From assembly GCA_036504735.1 (NCBI GenBank), contig DASXUQ010000012.1:1-64000 (forward strand): a DNA stretch of 64,000 bases, read 5' to 3'. The notes beneath the pieces are model-generated. The model was not told the origin of the DNA and ran no database searches. It saw nothing but the letters and a program-made list of their open reading frames with translations. Both the position numbers and the translations under genes were made by a program. Below, piece by piece: positions 36,779 to 50,575 of the stretch (position 1 is its first letter; each line of letters starts with the position of its first letter). This stretch comes from a bacterium. GTDB lineage: Bacteria; Electryoneota; RPQS01.

Positions 36779-38431
36779 CTATTCGGGTTCGACGGGCAGG
36801 CTGATATGAAAGGTCGTGCCACGGTTGACTTCGCTGTCAAAGTGGATGCTGCCACCGATGCGCTCGAGGATGCTGTGGGTTACGGCCAGACCCAGACCCA
36901 AACCACCCGCGATCTGTCCGCTCTTGGTGGTAAAGAACCGCTCATAGATTCGTGCCTGATCTTCCGGAGGGATGCCGCACCCCTGATCGGCGACGCTCAA
37001 CGTGAGGGTGTCTTCGTCGATCTCGGCTTCCACGCGGATATCTCCTCCCTGCGGGGACGCTTCGATGGCATTTTGCAGAATGTTGAACAGCACCTGCTTC
37101 AACGCATCCTCATGCACCAGCATGATTCGCGCCGCGCGCGCTACGTCCGCGTGAATGGTCACCTCCTGTACGCGGGTATCGCTTTGCAGCAGCATGATCA
37201 CATCCTGAATCGCATCCGCCGGGTTGCAGGGCACGGGCACTTCATTTTCGGGCCGGTAGAGGCCGAACATCTGATGGACAATGCGGGCCACACGTTTCAG
37301 TTCGCGTTCAATGCGGCCCACGAACTCGTAGTGCTCGGCATCCTTGGGGATGGACTTCTTGACCACCTTGAAGGCCATGCCCACTCCGGCGAGGGGATTA
37401 TTGATCTCATGGGCGATATGCGCGGCCATGCGGCCCAGCGCCGCCTGCTGCTCGTTTTCCAGACGCTCGTGCTGCAACTTGCGGATCTGCGCCGTGTGCT
37501 CGGCGATGACGGCTTCGAGAGCCTCACGTTGATGGCGAATTTCGCTCGCCGTATCTCCCTGCGCGCTTTGTTTCAAATCGGTAATGTCGCGGTTGATCTG
37601 CAGGAAGGAGATCGGCTCGCCGCCGTCGTTGCGCCGCACCGCCCAGAGGCTCTGCACAATCATCCGGCGGCCATCGCGCGCGGTCTGACGAATTTCGGTG
37701 GCATAGTAGCCCTCGCGCAGCACATGGGCCTTCAGTTCTTCCATGGGCAGCGAGTATTCGGATTTCATCAGCTCGCAGGCCAGATATCCCACCGCTTCGT
37801 CTTCCGTCCAGCCATACATGCGCTCGGCACCCGAATTCCAGAAGGTAATCCGGTCATCCATCCCGCGGACGATAATGGCGTCCGGCACGACGTTGAAAAG
37901 CTGTGCTCGCTCGCGCAGCGTGTCCGCGGAGTTCTTCAACGCAAGGCGGAAGCGGCGGTTGCTCTCCTGCAGCGCGGCTTCGGCCTGCATGTGCTTTTCG
38001 AGCCGGCGTTCCAGTTCTTCCTGCATGCGATGCGGCGAGCCCAGCGCCCTTCGCAGCGCGTAAGGCAGCAGGCCCTCCAGCGTCTGCCGCCGAGTCAGAG
38101 CATCGAACGCTCCCGCCTTCAGCAGGTCCAGAATCCGCGTCTCGTGATCCGTGTGGCAAAGGACGATTGCCGGCACGCCCGATGCAAGGCGCAGCAGGTC
38201 CAAGGCGTCGCAGCGGGGCGGGGAATCCTCGATAATCAGCACAGCGAAGGAGTCTTCTTCCAGTGCAGCCTTTAAGTCCCGCGGACGAACCGATACCACG
38301 CGTGCGGAGTGGGTACCGGCTTCGCGCAAGGCCGTGGACAGGCCGCGAATACCCGAAGGATTTTCGGTCACCGCCAGGGCTTTCAGAATGGTCAAGGATA
38401 CAGGCAGATGTTCAAGTTTTCGTGACGCCAT
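36779..38431 (-). CDS. Pseudo-receiver/PAS sensor histidine kinase (short paralogue)
   Basis: 550 residues from the ATG at 38431, chosen because MASRKLEHL then aligns with MSRKSHTKD of the large paralogue at 44700-49976. Domain order: N-terminal receiver-like domain (about 12-130) with D69 in IIEDSPP but no acidic pocket and R114 where the receiver lysine should be; a coiled coil; one PAS domain (about 172-290, VPDAIIVRGMDDRITFWN); HisKA with phospho-acceptor H341 in HIAHEINNPLAG; HATPase with DQGCGIPPEDQ and GGLGLGLAVTHS. There are no membrane segments, so it is cytoplasmic. No response regulator is nearby. Its leader carries a terminator-like hairpin 30 nt before the ATG. Confidence 0.92.
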   Translation of the reverse strand: MASRKLEHLPVSLTILKALAVTENPSGIRGLSTALREAGTHSARVVSVRPRDLKAALEEDSFAVLIIEDSPPRCDALDLLRLASGVPAIVLCHTDHETRILDLLKAGAFDALTRRQTLEGLLPYALRRALGSPHRMQEELERRLEKHMQAEAALQESNRRFRLALKNSADTLRERAQLFNVVPDAIIVRGMDDRITFWNSGAERMYGWTEDEAVGYLACELMKSEYSLPMEELKAHVLREGYYATEIRQTARDGRRMIVQSLWAVRRNDGGEPISFLQINRDITDLKQSAQGDTASEIRHQREALEAVIAEHTAQIRKLQHERLENEQQAALGRMAAHIAHEINNPLAGVGMAFKVVKKSIPKDAEHYEFVGRIERELKRVARIVHQMFGLYRPENEVPVPCNPADAIQDVIMLLQSDTRVQEVTIHADVARAARIMLVHEDALKQVLFNILQNAIEASPQGGDIRVEAEIDEDTLTLSVADQGCGIPPEDQARIYERFFTTKSGQIAGGLGLGLAVTHSILERIGGSIHFDSEVNRGTTFHISLPVEPE

Positions 38432-38459
38432 AGGTCTGCTACCCGGTGATAAAAACAAA

Positions 38460-38558
38460 AAGGCGGAGTCGCGTTCAAAGTGCCGCGATACCGCCTTGGA
38501 ATCCATCACGTGTTATGGCCCCGGTTTCGCCAATAGTCGCGTGTCCGCGACTCCTCAT
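38460..38558 (-). promoter_or_regulatory. Candidate attenuator leader of the short PAS kinase
   Basis: On the minus strand: hairpin AGTCGCG-GACA-CGCGACT (38552-38535), then AAGGCGG-TA-TCGCG, 10-nt loop, CGCGA-CT-CCGCCTT (38497-38460) followed by TTTGTTTTTATC. GGAGTCGCG at 38554-38546 is a perfect 9-nt complement of CGCGACTCC at 38473-38465 in the 3' arm, so an alternative pairing would break the terminator. A 27-codon frame (38558-38475) ends in the loop of the terminator. There is an AT-rich -10-like box (TACATTATATAT) just upstream. No Rfam family was recognised. Confidence 0.5.
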
Positions 38559-38782
38559 ATATAATGTATCTAAGTAACTATCCTGAGCGGATAAACGCAA
38601 GCGGGAGCGAACCACTTTCAGGTTTAGCATCCGGCCAGAATAAACGCCGTCGCGGCCCCGCCGCGAGTTGCTCAAGCGCGCGCAGACAAAATCTGTTGAG
38701 CACAAACACCACCAACTGCGGTCGCAGGGGCCAAGCGCCAGCGCTCGCCGAAAACAGGTAGTCTAAGGTTTCCTCCTGCGCT
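38559..38782. other. Intergenic region upstream of the kinase leader
   Basis: No gene. It contains a GC-rich hairpin CGCGGC-CCC-GCCGCG (38651-38665) that could end the methyltransferase operon, though it has no U-tract, and AT-rich sequence at 38556-38580 probably holding the kinase promoter. Confidence 0.4.
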
Positions 38783-44699: not shown

Positions 44700-47600
44700 C
44701 TACGATGAAGCCGTTCGCGGCACTTCATCTTCGACCTGAACGGGTAAGGTAATGTGAAAGGTAGTGCCGCGGTTCTCGATGGTCTCGAAGGAGATCAAGC
44801 CTCCCATGCTCTCCACCAAGCTGCGGGTTACCGAGAGCCCTAATCCGAGGCCGCCGGTGGTCTCACCCTCCTTGGTGGTGAAGAACGGCTCGAAGATTCT
44901 CGACTGCACCTCTTCGGGAATGCCGCCGCCTTGATCCGCAATATCGAGGGCCAGAACGCTGCCGCGGAGAATGCACTCCACGCGCACGGTCGCGCCCTGC
45001 GGCGAGGCTTCGATGGCGTTCTGCAACACGTTAAACAGCACCTGCTTGAGCGAGTCGCTGTGAATCCGGACCGGCTTTCCGGCCCGCGCCGTCTCCTGCT
45101 CGACTTTAATGCCTTGCGAGCGGATGTTCCCTTGCAGCAGGATTACCACGTCTTGAATGGCATCCGCCGGCCGGATCACTTCCGGTTCTCGGCGCTCCGG
45201 ACGGTAAAGTTCGAACATCTGGCGCACGATGCGGGCGATGCGGTCCAATTCTCGCTCGATGCGGTTGACGAACTCGAAGTGCTTGTAGTCTTCCGGAATG
45301 GCCTTCTTGACCAGCAGGAAGGAGTTCTTCACTCCGGCCAGGGGGTTGTTGATCTCGTGGGCGATGCGCGCGGCCATGCGGCCCACCGACACCTGCTTCT
45401 CGCTTTCCAGCCGCTGCCGCTCAAGCTTGCGGATCTGCGCCGTACGCTCCTCGATAATCCGTTCGAGTTCTTCCGAGTGCCGCCGGATCTGCTCTTCCGT
45501 CTTCTTGCGGTCGGTAATATCCTGCACCGCGCCGATCATCCTCTGCAGACGATGATGGTCGTCGAACACGATCACCGCGTGCTCCACAACAATGCGCATA
45601 TCCCCGTCGGGCCGGAGGATGCGGTGCTCCACGGTGTAGGGCTCATGCAGGGCAATGGCGCGGTCTACCGCTTCCCGCACCAGATCGCGGTCGTCGGGGT
45701 GAACGTGTTCGAAGAACAGACTGTTGGTCACGTTGACGCCGCCGGGTTCATAGCCGAAGATGCGAAAGACCTCATCGGACCAATGCAGCGGATTTTCTGC
45801 CGTCGCATCCGAAGTGTTCGCGAATTCGAATTCCCACGCGCCGAGGTGCGTCATCTGCCCGGCCTGCGCCAGAATCGCTTCACTGCGCTGCAGGGCTTCT
45901 TCAGACTGTTTGCGTTCGGTGATGTCCGTGTGGGTGCCTACGACGCGCAGCGGCCGCCCGTTGCCGTCCCAGGCCACAACTTTACCGCGGTCCAGAATCC
46001 AGCGGTACTGTCCGTCTTTGTGCTTCATGCGGAACTCGGCTTCCACCAGAGCCTTGGTGCTGCGGGAGAGATTCTCCGTCGCCGCGAGGGCCGCGGCGCG
46101 GTCGTCCGGATGAATCAGTTCTTCGAGTGTGTGCCGGTTCTGCGGCAGTTCGTAGGGCTCGTAGCCGAGCATCGTATACCACGTGGGGCTGTAAAAGGCG
46201 CGATCGTTCTGCGGATCCCAGTCCCACATGCCGATCCGAGTGGCTTCGAGGCCGGCCATAAGACGCGCCTCGCTGACCCGCAGCGCCTCTTCCATTTGCT
46301 TGCGTTCGGTAATGTCCGTTTCCGTGCCCAGAATCCGCTTGGGGCGTCCCAGCCGGTCCCATTTCACCACCTTGGCGCGCATCAGTACCCAGCGGTACTC
46401 ACCCGACTTGCAGCGCATGCGGTGTTCCAATTCAAAGCCCTTCGAACCGGGATTTAAAGCGTGCACCATGTCCTTGAGTGTGCCCGGCATGTCATCCGGA
46501 TGCACCAGCTTCTGCCACGAATCGAAAGTCATGGAGAGTTCGTAGGGGGTGTAACCCAGCATGGTGTACCACTGCGGTGAGTAGTAGATTTCATTGGGCG
46601 GCTTCCATTCCCAGAAGCCGATGCGGTTGGCTTCAAGGGCGGTATTCAGCCGTTCCCGCGAGGCCGTCAGGGCTTCCTCGGCTTCCTTCAGATCGGTGAC
46701 GTCGCGTCCCACGCAGATGGCCGTGTTCCGCTTCCCATGCTCATCGGCCACGGCGGTGTTGCGCCAGGAGAGCCAACGCCAGCCGTCGGTGGTCATGGTG
46801 CGGGCTTCGATCTCGCTGCGGAACGCCGGCGGCTCAAAGGTCTTCTGCCACGCTTCGTCCACACGCGTCTGATCGTCGGGGTGGATTTCCGGCACGTACC
46901 TTGTATCGAGAACCTCTTCTTCGGTCTTACCTACCAATTTCAGGTAATTGGAATTGACATACAGCCGACGGCCATCACGGCTCATCCGCGCCACCATGTC
47001 CGTCTGGTTCTCCACGAGGAACTGATAATCTTCCTTGGCCTTGCGCAGGTCCTCTTCCGCGCGTTTGCGTTCGGTGATATCGCGGTACGCGGACACATAC
47101 CCCGCAATTCTCCCGTCCGCCGCCCGCAGCGCCGCAGATTGAACATGTGCGGTAAACGCCGTGCCGTCCGGATGCCGGAATCCGGATTCGAACTCCACGG
47201 TCCGTCCCGCCGCCAGATCATCGGCGATAGCCTCGCGTTCTTCCGCCGTGTGAGAAGACGGAATCACATCAAAGGCGTACTTGCCTATCGCCTGGCCGGC
47301 TTTTATGCTGAAGAGGTCTTCGGCGGCGCGGTTCCATGTTGTAATATGGAAGACCGGATCCACCGCCACGATGGCGTCGCGTACACGGTCCAGTACAAAG
47401 GCCTGGTGGACGCGATCTTCTTCAGCCTTATGGCGGTCGGTAATGTCGCTGACCGTCAGCACCGCCAGCAGCAGCTTGCCTTGGTCATCCCGCACAAGGG
47501 TGCCGGCGTAGCTGAAGACCCGCTGCCAGTCGCTGCCGACCCGCGAAATCCGCAGGTCCCAGTCCCGCAACGGCTCTCCGCGCAAGATGCGGGACAGGGG

Positions 47601-49976
47601 CCAATCCTCGAAGAACACCGGCGTGCCATCCATCTCCCGCAGTTCGAATACGCGGGTGAACTCCGGCAATCTGCGCCGCGCTTCCTCGAGAGTCTCATAG
47701 CCATGCATATCCAGCGCGGCACGGTTCCACTCGATGAGGTTGCCCTCAAGATCCGAGACAATCACACCTTCGGCAAGCGTGTCGATCACGGTGCGCAGTT
47801 GGGCTTCGCTGCGCCGCAGCGCCTCATCGGTCCGCCGCCGATCATAAATTTCCTCTTCAAGCTGCGCGTTCAATTCTTCCAGATCGTTGTTGAGCTGACG
47901 GAGACGTTCCGCGCGGTCGGCCAACTCCTCTTCGGCCTGCTTGCGCTGGGTAATGTCCCGGGTTACGATCACGGCGAGGATCTGCGTGCCGTCTTCTTCG
48001 AACACAGGCTGGCCGCTGAAGCTGAAATACCACTCCTGCCCGGTGTCGGTACGTCGCGCGCGCAACTCCCGTTCACTCACGGTTCTCCCGCGCAGCACAT
48101 GGGAAACCGGCCAGTCTTCCAGCGGCAGCGGCGTGCCGTCCAGACTCATGATCTGGAACACCGAAGCAAAGTAATCCAGATTCTTTTTCATCTCATCGGG
48201 ACTGTTGTACCCGCACATTTTGGCTTCGGCCTTGTTCACCAGCCGGAAATGGCCCTGCATGTCCGTGACCACGATGCCGTCATCCACCGACTCGAACACC
48301 GCCTCAAGCTGCGCCTGCTCGCGGACGGCACTCTGCACCGCCCACCGCAGAGCCTCTTCCATTTCTTTGCGCTGGGTGATTTCACGGTTCACCTGCATAA
48401 AGGCGATAGGAGCCCCGTTGTGGTCGCGCTGCACTGCCCAGCGGCTGGTAACCACCAGCTTGCGGACGTCCCGCGTGATGTCCGTAATTTCGACTTCGTA
48501 ACTCCCCTCGCGCAGGACCCGTTCTTTGATCTCGTCATAAGGAACAGTGGTCTGCGCCATCAACAGTTCGTGCACCACCTGTCCGAGCGCTTCCTCGCGC
48601 GTCCAGCCGTAGAGCCGCTCGGCGCCGCGATTCCAATAGATGCAGCGGTCTTCCAGATCCCTTACGATAATCGCGTCGTCTTCGAGATCGAACAGATCCG
48701 CTTGATGCCGCAGCGACTGCTCCATCTGCTTTCGCGCGGTTATGTCGCGGTTGATTTGCAGAAAGGAAACTTCCTGCTCATCGTTGCGACGCAAGGTCCA
48801 GCGGCTGGCCGTAGTAATACCGCGCCCATCCTTGGTATATTGTTCCAGTTCGCAGCTATAAGATCCGGCACGCAATAGTTCGGCTTCCAGATCGCCAAAG
48901 GACTCCGGAAACTTCGTGTGGAGCAGTTCATACGCAATCTGGCCCACCGCTTCGCCGGCGGTGAACCCGTACGTGTGCTCCGCGCCCTGGTTCCAGTAGA
49001 GAATCCGGTCCTTGTCATCGCAGACCAGAATCGCGTCTTCGGCCAGGTCCAGCAGTTCGGCCTGATCGCGCAGCATGTCGGTCACTTCCCGCCGCCGGCG
49101 CATCTCGCGGCGCAGCCGCTCGTTGGCGGACACCAGATCGTCGTGCGCATCGCGCAATTCTTCTTCCGTGCGGTGCGCGGCGGTGATATTCACCGACGCC
49201 GTCAACAGGCCCGTCACGTTCCCTTTGGAATCTTTCTGCGGCTCGATGATCACATTATGGTATGTGATCCGCTTGTTGAAGATCAGCTTGATCTCATCGT
49301 GCACCCGCTCGCCGGTTCGAATCACCTGCGACTTCAGGTCTATCAGCTCTTTTCCGCCGTTCGCCCCAAACAGCTCCTCATCGGTTTTGCCGATAATCTG
49401 CTGGGCATCCGAGATCGGCGACACCGGATTGAACACCGACACGTAGCGCAGATCTTCGTCCTGCCGCCAGACGGTGACCGGAGAATTTTGCAGCGCCAGC
49501 CGCAGCGTCTCCGCGTCGAAGGCCGGGGCCTCTGCCGGCGGGGGCGGCGGGGTTTCTATGATTTCTTCGAGGCGGGGATGCTTGCCCACCGCGCGCCGCA
49601 GCGCGTAGGACAGCAGGCCGCAGGCCGCCTGCTGGCGCGAGACCACGTCGAAGGCTCCCGCTTCGAACAGTTCTATCGTGCGCGCGCAGTCATCGTGGGC
49701 GGCCAGCACGACCACCTTGCCGGTCCTGGCCGCCGAATTCAGCAGTTCGAGCGCATCGCAATCGGAAGAATCACGAATCACGACCAGATTATACGACGTT
49801 CCGCTGCTGAGAAGACCTTGCGCCTCGCGGGGACGCATCGTGGTCAACTTAGCTTGAGGTGCTCCCGCTTCCCGCAGCGCCGTCTGCAAACCGCGGATTC
49901 CCGAATCTTGTTCGGCGACTGCCAGCGCGGTGAAGGGTTCTGCGGGAGCGTCTTTCGTGTGTGACTTTCGTGACAT
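44700..49976 (-). CDS. Large pseudo-receiver sensor histidine kinase with ten PAS domains
   Basis: 1,758 residues. An N-terminal receiver-like domain (about 15-130) keeps D69 but has R114 instead of the receiver lysine and lacks the acidic pocket. Ten PAS/PAC units follow, each ending near a DITxRK motif; units 2-3 and units 8-9 (both with FYSPTWYTMLGY or YYSPQWYTMLGY) are recent internal duplications. Then a coiled coil, HisKA with H1540 in RIAHEINNPLAG, and HATPase with DQGGGIPEEVQ and GGLGLGLSVTRS. No membrane segment, so a soluble multi-input sensor. Clear paralogue of the kinase at 36779-38431. No receiver partner is nearby. A terminator-like hairpin precedes the gene by 36 nt. Confidence 0.94.
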   Translation of the reverse strand: MSRKSHTKDAPAEPFTALAVAEQDSGIRGLQTALREAGAPQAKLTTMRPREAQGLLSSGTSYNLVVIRDSSDCDALELLNSAARTGKVVVLAAHDDCARTIELFEAGAFDVVSRQQAACGLLSYALRRAVGKHPRLEEIIETPPPPPAEAPAFDAETLRLALQNSPVTVWRQDEDLRYVSVFNPVSPISDAQQIIGKTDEELFGANGGKELIDLKSQVIRTGERVHDEIKLIFNKRITYHNVIIEPQKDSKGNVTGLLTASVNITAAHRTEEELRDAHDDLVSANERLRREMRRRREVTDMLRDQAELLDLAEDAILVCDDKDRILYWNQGAEHTYGFTAGEAVGQIAYELLHTKFPESFGDLEAELLRAGSYSCELEQYTKDGRGITTASRWTLRRNDEQEVSFLQINRDITARKQMEQSLRHQADLFDLEDDAIIVRDLEDRCIYWNRGAERLYGWTREEALGQVVHELLMAQTTVPYDEIKERVLREGSYEVEITDITRDVRKLVVTSRWAVQRDHNGAPIAFMQVNREITQRKEMEEALRWAVQSAVREQAQLEAVFESVDDGIVVTDMQGHFRLVNKAEAKMCGYNSPDEMKKNLDYFASVFQIMSLDGTPLPLEDWPVSHVLRGRTVSERELRARRTDTGQEWYFSFSGQPVFEEDGTQILAVIVTRDITQRKQAEEELADRAERLRQLNNDLEELNAQLEEEIYDRRRTDEALRRSEAQLRTVIDTLAEGVIVSDLEGNLIEWNRAALDMHGYETLEEARRRLPEFTRVFELREMDGTPVFFEDWPLSRILRGEPLRDWDLRISRVGSDWQRVFSYAGTLVRDDQGKLLLAVLTVSDITDRHKAEEDRVHQAFVLDRVRDAIVAVDPVFHITTWNRAAEDLFSIKAGQAIGKYAFDVIPSSHTAEEREAIADDLAAGRTVEFESGFRHPDGTAFTAHVQSAALRAADGRIAGYVSAYRDITERKRAEEDLRKAKEDYQFLVENQTDMVARMSRDGRRLYVNSNYLKLVGKTEEEVLDTRYVPEIHPDDQTRVDEAWQKTFEPPAFRSEIEARTMTTDGWRWLSWRNTAVADEHGKRNTAICVGRDVTDLKEAEEALTASRERLNTALEANRIGFWEWKPPNEIYYSPQWYTMLGYTPYELSMTFDSWQKLVHPDDMPGTLKDMVHALNPGSKGFELEHRMRCKSGEYRWVLMRAKVVKWDRLGRPKRILGTETDITERKQMEEALRVSEARLMAGLEATRIGMWDWDPQNDRAFYSPTWYTMLGYEPYELPQNRHTLEELIHPDDRAAALAATENLSRSTKALVEAEFRMKHKDGQYRWILDRGKVVAWDGNGRPLRVVGTHTDITERKQSEEALQRSEAILAQAGQMTHLGAWEFEFANTSDATAENPLHWSDEVFRIFGYEPGGVNVTNSLFFEHVHPDDRDLVREAVDRAIALHEPYTVEHRILRPDGDMRIVVEHAVIVFDDHHRLQRMIGAVQDITDRKKTEEQIRRHSEELERIIEERTAQIRKLERQRLESEKQVSVGRMAARIAHEINNPLAGVKNSFLLVKKAIPEDYKHFEFVNRIERELDRIARIVRQMFELYRPERREPEVIRPADAIQDVVILLQGNIRSQGIKVEQETARAGKPVRIHSDSLKQVLFNVLQNAIEASPQGATVRVECILRGSVLALDIADQGGGIPEEVQSRIFEPFFTTKEGETTGGLGLGLSVTRSLVESMGGLISFETIENRGTTFHITLPVQVEDEVPRTASS

Positions 49977-50004
49977 AAGGCGATTTTTTAGATAGGGTAT
50001 GACA

Positions 50005-50050
50005 GAGAAAAAGGCGGCTAACGCTACATCAGCTGCGCCACCGCCCCCGG
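50005..50050 (-). promoter_or_regulatory. Candidate attenuator hairpin of the large PAS kinase
   Basis: On the minus strand GGCGG (50045-50041), TGG, CGC, 10-nt loop, GCG, TTAG, CCGCC (50017-50013), then TTTTTCTC. The layout, 10-nt loop and distance to the start codon match the hairpin before the short kinase. A 62-codon frame (50241-50053) ends just before it. Confidence 0.5.
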
Positions 50051-50575
50051 CTCTACTGCAAGTATTCGGATTCAGCCCAGATGGTGCGGATGCGGCGGAT
50101 ACTCGCGCACGGATGCGTAAGTGAGATCAAGGTGCTGGATGATTGCTGGGTCACGTCACGCAAAATGACTTCTGCGCACGTTCCGGAGCAATTCATAGTA
50201 TGCAACCACATTAATTTAGGACACGCGCGTAGGAAAAGCAAGTTGCTTCCGAATTAATTTTCCATCTCAGCGGGAGCAGGAAATTTATTTGGAAAAATTC
50301 AATTTCTAAGGGTGCGTCTCTCGCCAAGTCAAACCGCCGCATTGTCGGCATATTCCGGAAGATGCGAGCCCTTGATATTTGAACGTGTGCCTCTGCGATC
50401 AAGTTGCCGAGCCGAACGGAGCCTTAGGCATCTTAAGAGGTGACTTAGTTTATCTAACCTCATCTACCTGTATGGCTATCGAAAAGAAGATCCTTCTTGC
50501 CGATGCTCCACTTTGCTTCTGCTGGAGGATCACAGTTGATCCTAATCTGTTCGGAGTAGACGGGGCCTTCGTTGA
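50051..50575. other. Intergenic region upstream of the large kinase
   Basis: No supported gene. AT-rich at 50210-50310. A 62-codon minus frame (50241-50053) ends right before the leader hairpin; it has no clear ribosome site and I treat it only as a possible leader ORF. A 136-codon plus frame at 50379 is antisense and overlaps the pepF end; rejected. Confidence 0.4.

Follow-up and report, generated by a model that had tools for sequence, protein, structure and literature searches.

Candidate premature-termination leaders in front of two paralogous sensor kinases of an Electryoneota bacterium

Large multi-PAS kinases are usually discussed as proteins regulated by signals and not by dose. In the 64,000-nt stretch analyzed here (the window), two paralogous sensor kinase genes, P1 and P2, are each preceded by a hairpin and a run of T residues shortly before the start codon. 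The question is whether these elements end transcripts arriving from upstream or lie within the leaders of the kinases themselves, and whether the two represent one shared regulatory RNA.

Kinase genes and their leader hairpins

Domains of the two kinases were assigned with Pfam.

36779 to 38431, minus strand: kinase P1, 550 aa, with a divergent receiver-like N-terminus, one PAS domain, HisKA and HATPase_c
44700 to 49976, minus strand: kinase P2, 1758 aa, with an N-terminus as in P1, many PAS domains, HisKA and HATPase_c

The MASRK/MSRK N-termini at the P1 start (38431) and the P2 start agree. The P1 start is supported by this agreement and because an in-frame extension to a GTG at 38509 scores as non-coding (-0.20 per codon, compared to -0.19 for typical intergenic DNA). 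On the minus strand, the reading frame of each kinase remains open past the hairpin in the upstream direction, over 38432-38509 (26 codons, P1) and 49977-50126 (50 codons, P2). Both open stretches are non-coding by codon score, and no start codon was found in that of P2 (49977-50126). Location of the hairpins inside an N-terminal extension of the kinases was rejected on these scores together with the matching starts.

The leader elements are as follows.

38460 to 38497, minus strand: P1 leader hairpin (7 bp, 2x2 internal loop, 5 bp, 10-nt loop)
38455 to 38459, minus strand: P1 T-run, directly after the hairpin
50010 to 50048, minus strand: P2 leader hairpin, reading GGGGGCGGTGGCGCAGCTGATGTAGCGTTAGCCGCCTTT from 50048 to 50010
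50008 to 50012, minus strand: P2 T-run (TTTTTC), the first bases of which are also paired in the predicted stem

The P1 hairpin reads AAGGCGG-TA-TCGCG-(10 nt)-CGCGA-CT-CCGCCTT on the minus strand (38497-38460), followed by TTTTTG. Its folding energy of -21.2 kcal/mol (z -4.4) beats all 200 of 200 shuffles. The P2 hairpin (-20.6 kcal/mol, z -1.85) is only moderately better than shuffles, and the stability of the whole P2 leader (z -0.55) is not unusual. At both kinases a stable G+C-rich hairpin directly precedes a T-run on the strand of the gene, as in intrinsic terminators. The hairpins and T-runs that a first-pass annotation had placed before both kinases are thus present, terminator-like and at about -20 kcal/mol. 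Their near-equal position also holds, with computed distances from hairpin end to ATG of 28 nt (P1) and 33 nt (P2) in place of the 30 and 36 nt originally given.

The same annotation had described one and the same hairpin, with identical stem layout and loop size. What the two have in common is limited to the closing words GGCGG/CCGCC, size and position, including 10-nt loops and a near-equal geometry. They differ in the internal loop, which is 2x2 in P1 and 1x2 in P2, and in the 10-nt loop, which is open in P1 but forms further pairs in P2; loop, inner stem, leader and spacer are without sequence homology. When 356 clean terminators of the sampled genome were compared pairwise, the similarity of P1 and P2 fell only within the top 10% of 63,190 pairs. 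The pattern GGCGG-N16-30-CCGCC-TTTTT occurs at only two places in the 4.16-Mb genome, namely P1 and P2. The reversed control pattern likewise has two matches, and the count by itself is therefore at chance level; the notable part is that both matches precede kinase paralogues. While the first 120 nt of the two coding regions are homologous (0 of 1,000 shuffles as good), no homology between P1 and P2 was detected upstream of the hairpin (p 0.63 and 0.09), inside it (p 0.44) or in the spacer between T-run and ATG (p 0.54). We propose that the hairpins had separate origins or have diverged past recognition. Inheritance from the common ancestor of the kinases was rejected, given the lack of leader homology and a kinase-core tree in which P1 and P2 are not resolved as sisters.

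Predicted promoters and upstream genes

A two-box promoter model was trained on upstream regions of this genome, with the P1 and P2 leaders excluded; genes were called in stretches of the 4.16-Mb genome that totaled first 464 kb and then 2.04 Mb. The model converged on TTGACT-17-TATATT, and 77-81% of the weight fell on the 17-nt spacing. Sites scoring 12 bits or more occurred in the 464-kb sample at a density of 1.8 per kb upstream of genes, versus 0.08 per kb in coding DNA. The predicted promoters and the neighboring upstream features are:

38572 to 38600, minus strand: predicted P1 leader promoter, TTGCGT-17-TTACTT, transcription start at about 38565, 12.0-12.7 bits
38783 to 39793, minus strand: O-methyltransferase gene upstream of P1, itself downstream of two alpha-amylase genes
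50213 to 50241, minus strand: predicted P2 leader promoter, TTGCTT-17-TAAATT, transcription start at about 50206, 18.8-19.0 bits
50582 to 50610, minus strand: ordinary terminator (-23 kcal/mol) of the M3-peptidase gene upstream of P2, just past its stop codon

The putative P1 site is of modest strength, 12 bits being reached by about 1.8% of 250-nt coding stretches; 18 bits is reached by about 0.1% of them. The upper value for each promoter (12.7 and 19.0 bits) came from a smaller version of the model. Between T-run and ATG, the model detected no promoter-like site in either leader (best 4.9 bits for P1 and 2.0 bits for P2). Since the best predicted sites lie upstream of both hairpins and none follows, the kinase transcript probably crosses the hairpin, which agrees with the earlier proposal on this point. 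No enrichment of promoter -10 elements near starts was found in this genome, and leaderless transcription is therefore not its rule; -10-like words are in fact depleted over the 20-30 nt that directly precede starts. A Shine-Dalgarno match is missing at the called start of about half of the genes.

The situation upstream is different for the two kinases. No other terminator was found between the O-methyltransferase gene and the P1 hairpin, so this hairpin may simply, or also, end the amylase/methyltransferase operon. The M3-peptidase gene has its own terminator and so does not require the P2 hairpin, which lies about 530 nt beyond it.

A 9-mer, GCTCCCGCT, was observed on the minus strand at 38600-38608 and 50269-50277 of the window and at G000 C12:95096-95104. 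These are its three copies on the minus strand of a 124-kb contig stretch, each upstream of a member of the kinase family (P1, P2 and K9). With 98 copies genome-wide versus 76 for the reversed control, it is near control level; it was not accepted as a common operator and is only a weak lead.

Candidate switches and RNA relatives

Two elements of the P1 leader could in principle belong to a regulatory switch:

38535 to 38555 (approximate ends), minus strand: 5' hairpin, AGTCGCG-GACA-CGCGACT
38475 to 38558, minus strand: 27-codon ORF with its stop in the terminator loop, a possible leader peptide

A possible antiterminator in P1 is the pairing of GGAGTCGCG with the terminator segment CGCGACTCC, which lies 4.5-4.8 kcal/mol above the minimum-energy fold. 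The cost of losing the terminator was compared with that in leaders having a shuffled upstream part. For P1, 14-18% of shuffles were as good, and replacing the terminator of P2 costs more than in about 98% of shuffles; neither leader has a mutually exclusive antiterminator fold beyond chance. Attenuation by a leader peptide was also rejected: the P1 frame has a negative codon score and no Shine-Dalgarno sequence, 8% of shuffles yield the same, and no equivalent was found in P2, so that a translated ORF overlapping the terminator is not a feature of both leaders.

Searches against Rfam, as proposed in the first-pass annotation, gave nothing credible for either leader at gathering or relaxed thresholds. 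Kinase orthologues were found neither in 39 genomes of the phylum (covering genus, family, order, class and phylum) nor in the GTDB species contigs, and consequently no covariance model was built. The leader sequence is not conserved in the 38 other genomes of the phylum, with only weak matches of 24-33 nt. Within the genome the kinase family has seven paralogues. Besides P1, P2 and K11a, these are K9, K10, K11b and K12, whose 5' regions were read. No terminator-like hairpin was seen in the 400 nt before the starts of K10, K11b and K12; K9 has a single ordinary one, 27 nt past the upstream gene. Hence the expected counterpart in leaders of homologues did not appear: none of these four paralogues is preceded by a hairpin resembling those of P1 and P2, and no sequence or structure beyond the closing stem is shared and present in the paralogues.

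These results bear on two further claims made for the locus. With regard to transcription attenuation, passage of the transcript through a terminator holds as a prediction, while regulated switching is not supported, the candidate antiterminator being no better than shuffles; a premature-termination element is itself of a known kind. A shared, undescribed cis-RNA found no backing in Rfam, leader homology, the four paralogues or the predicted folds, and the view that the two hairpins form a shared new RNA family is not supported.

Frequency of the layout in the genome

The 2.04 Mb surveyed contain 99 terminator-like hairpins no more than 160 nt ahead of a start on the same strand. The full layout of promoter, hairpin and start with no promoter in between was found for 13 hairpins within 200 nt, among approximately 1,230 genes. 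Two of the seven kinase paralogues have it (Fisher p 0.002, a post hoc value because the kinases were picked for their hairpins). Of the other start-proximal terminators in the 464-kb sample, most either are followed by a promoter or have no strong one; C12:81250 and C17:49755 are examples with a promoter between terminator and start.

Hairpins were also observed before four paralogous genes of secreted proteins:

G000 C10:255897-255930, plus strand: locus L107
G000 C10:222880-222915, minus strand: locus L106
G000 C17:253193-253228, minus strand: locus L059
G000 C19:316961-316996, plus strand: locus L150

The C-terminus encoded by these genes resembles a secretion sorting tail. Their leader consists of a promoter-like site about 60 nt upstream, a hairpin GCGAAC...GTTCGC with TTTTTTGTT, and an ATG about 24-27 nt later. 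The outer stem is constant and the inner stem varies (two copies are identical); exactly four copies are present genome-wide, and none matches Rfam. As an example of a leader terminator common to a gene family, they are more convincing than the kinases.

Interpretation

The reading we prefer, at roughly even confidence, is that transcription of both kinases terminates prematurely in the 5' leader and that their expression depends on read-through. Transcription of each kinase would start at a promoter that precedes an intrinsic terminator in the kinase's own leader. Most transcripts would stop there, giving an RNA of about 110 nt for P1 (from 38565 to roughly 38455) and one of about 200 nt for P2 (from 50206 to roughly 50008), and the kinase mRNA would be the fraction that reads through. 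The terminator would hold kinase expression low, and read-through may be adjustable. The hairpins, the T-runs, the promoter-like sites upstream and the absence of such sites in between were computed; we infer from them transcription, termination, read-through and any regulation of read-through. This reading is favored because a genome-trained model puts promoters upstream of both hairpins, the gene upstream of P2 terminates by itself, and the layout is rare; the similarly arranged leaders of the four secreted-protein genes were also counted for it. Counted against it were the P1 hairpin being the sole terminator for the upstream operon, the modest P1 promoter, the lack of an antiterminator beyond chance and the ordinary stability of the P2 leader.

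The operon upstream of P1 also speaks for treating the hairpins as ordinary terminators or insulators of upstream transcripts, the kinases then using a promoter of a type that the model misses, overlapping or after the hairpin. Terminators with a promoter between them and the start do occur here (C12:81250 and C17:49755), and short leaders are conceivable where about half of the genes lack a recognizable Shine-Dalgarno sequence. However, the strong terminator already present behind the gene upstream of P2, the absence of promoter-like sites past either hairpin and the depletion of -10-like words near starts make this account unlikely, if still worth serious consideration. Somewhat less probable again is that both leaders are genes for trans-acting small RNAs (5'-UTR-derived or free-standing), with the downstream kinases made by read-through. 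Promoter, structured RNA and terminator within 110-200 nt is the usual layout of such genes, the terminator competes with no other fold beyond chance in either leader, and 5'-UTR-derived sRNAs are documented (RhlS, PMC6786874; IspZ, PMC7815308). Yet the leaders lack conservation in the 38 other genomes of the phylum beyond the weak 24-33 nt matches, Rfam offers no match, and the P2 leader is no stabler than shuffles.

A shared, undescribed cis-regulatory RNA toggling between terminator and antiterminator in both leaders, as the first-pass annotation had it, appears very improbable. The closing words are identical, the geometry is near-equal and unique to these two sites of the genome, and the pairing of GGAGTCGCG with CGCGACTCC is cheap in P1; nevertheless, that alternative is matched by 14-18% of shuffles and has no P2 counterpart, the leaders are non-homologous, and the four paralogues K9, K10, K11b and K12 have no similar hairpin. 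We are just as doubtful that these are inverted repeats that lie beside T-runs by chance and leave transcription unaffected. The two matches of the reversed control and the P2 z-score of -1.85 would fit chance, but strong stems with an uninterrupted T5 lie exactly between promoter and start in two paralogues, and the P1 hairpin outdoes every shuffle. A broader and highly speculative extension is lineage-specific attenuation, in which leader terminators with upstream promoters would gate selected paralogues of expanded families (sensor kinases and secreted proteins), the P1 switch being a four-arm exchange GGAGTCGCG / CGCGACT / TCGCG / CGCGACTCC read by an unknown factor.

If a leader terminator does limit kinase mRNA, kinase abundance would itself be controlled, in a phylum that has been little studied. 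What the analysis offers in practice is a small set of leader terminators that can be tested, with their 5' and 3' ends predicted, and not a new RNA class.

Comparison with known systems

Ribosome-mediated attenuation of the trp/pyrBI type is a known attenuation system, and the 27-codon P1 frame with its stop in the terminator loop is reminiscent of it. Unlike in that system, this frame scores as non-coding and lacks a Shine-Dalgarno sequence, and no such frame was found in P2.

ANTAR-dependent antitermination (EutV, PMC3369931) similarly ties two-component signaling to leader terminators. Its targets carry tandem stems with hexanucleotide loops (A at position 1, G at position 4), the second overlapping the terminator, whereas the predicted minimum-energy folds of the P1 and P2 leaders have no such pair: P1 has 4-nt and 10-nt loops, and the P2 terminator has no ANTAR-type loop. 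A search of the genome for ANTAR domains gave no match, but control searches were equally silent.

The rhlI 5'-UTR sRNA RhlS (PMC6786874) is similar in that a regulatory gene with a terminator in its leader gives rise to both a short RNA and a read-through mRNA; unlike the P1 and P2 leaders, RhlS is Hfq-dependent and its targets have been shown. The closest parallel is premature intrinsic termination in 5'-UTRs, where attenuators and 5'-UTR sRNAs have been mapped by 3'-end sequencing in E. coli (PMC7815308) and P. aeruginosa (PMC8297930). Unlike those mapped terminators, the P1 and P2 elements are predicted from sequence, and no antiterminator or ligand has been identified for them. They have the same arrangement of promoter, short leader, terminator and gene, in which expression of the gene would require read-through.
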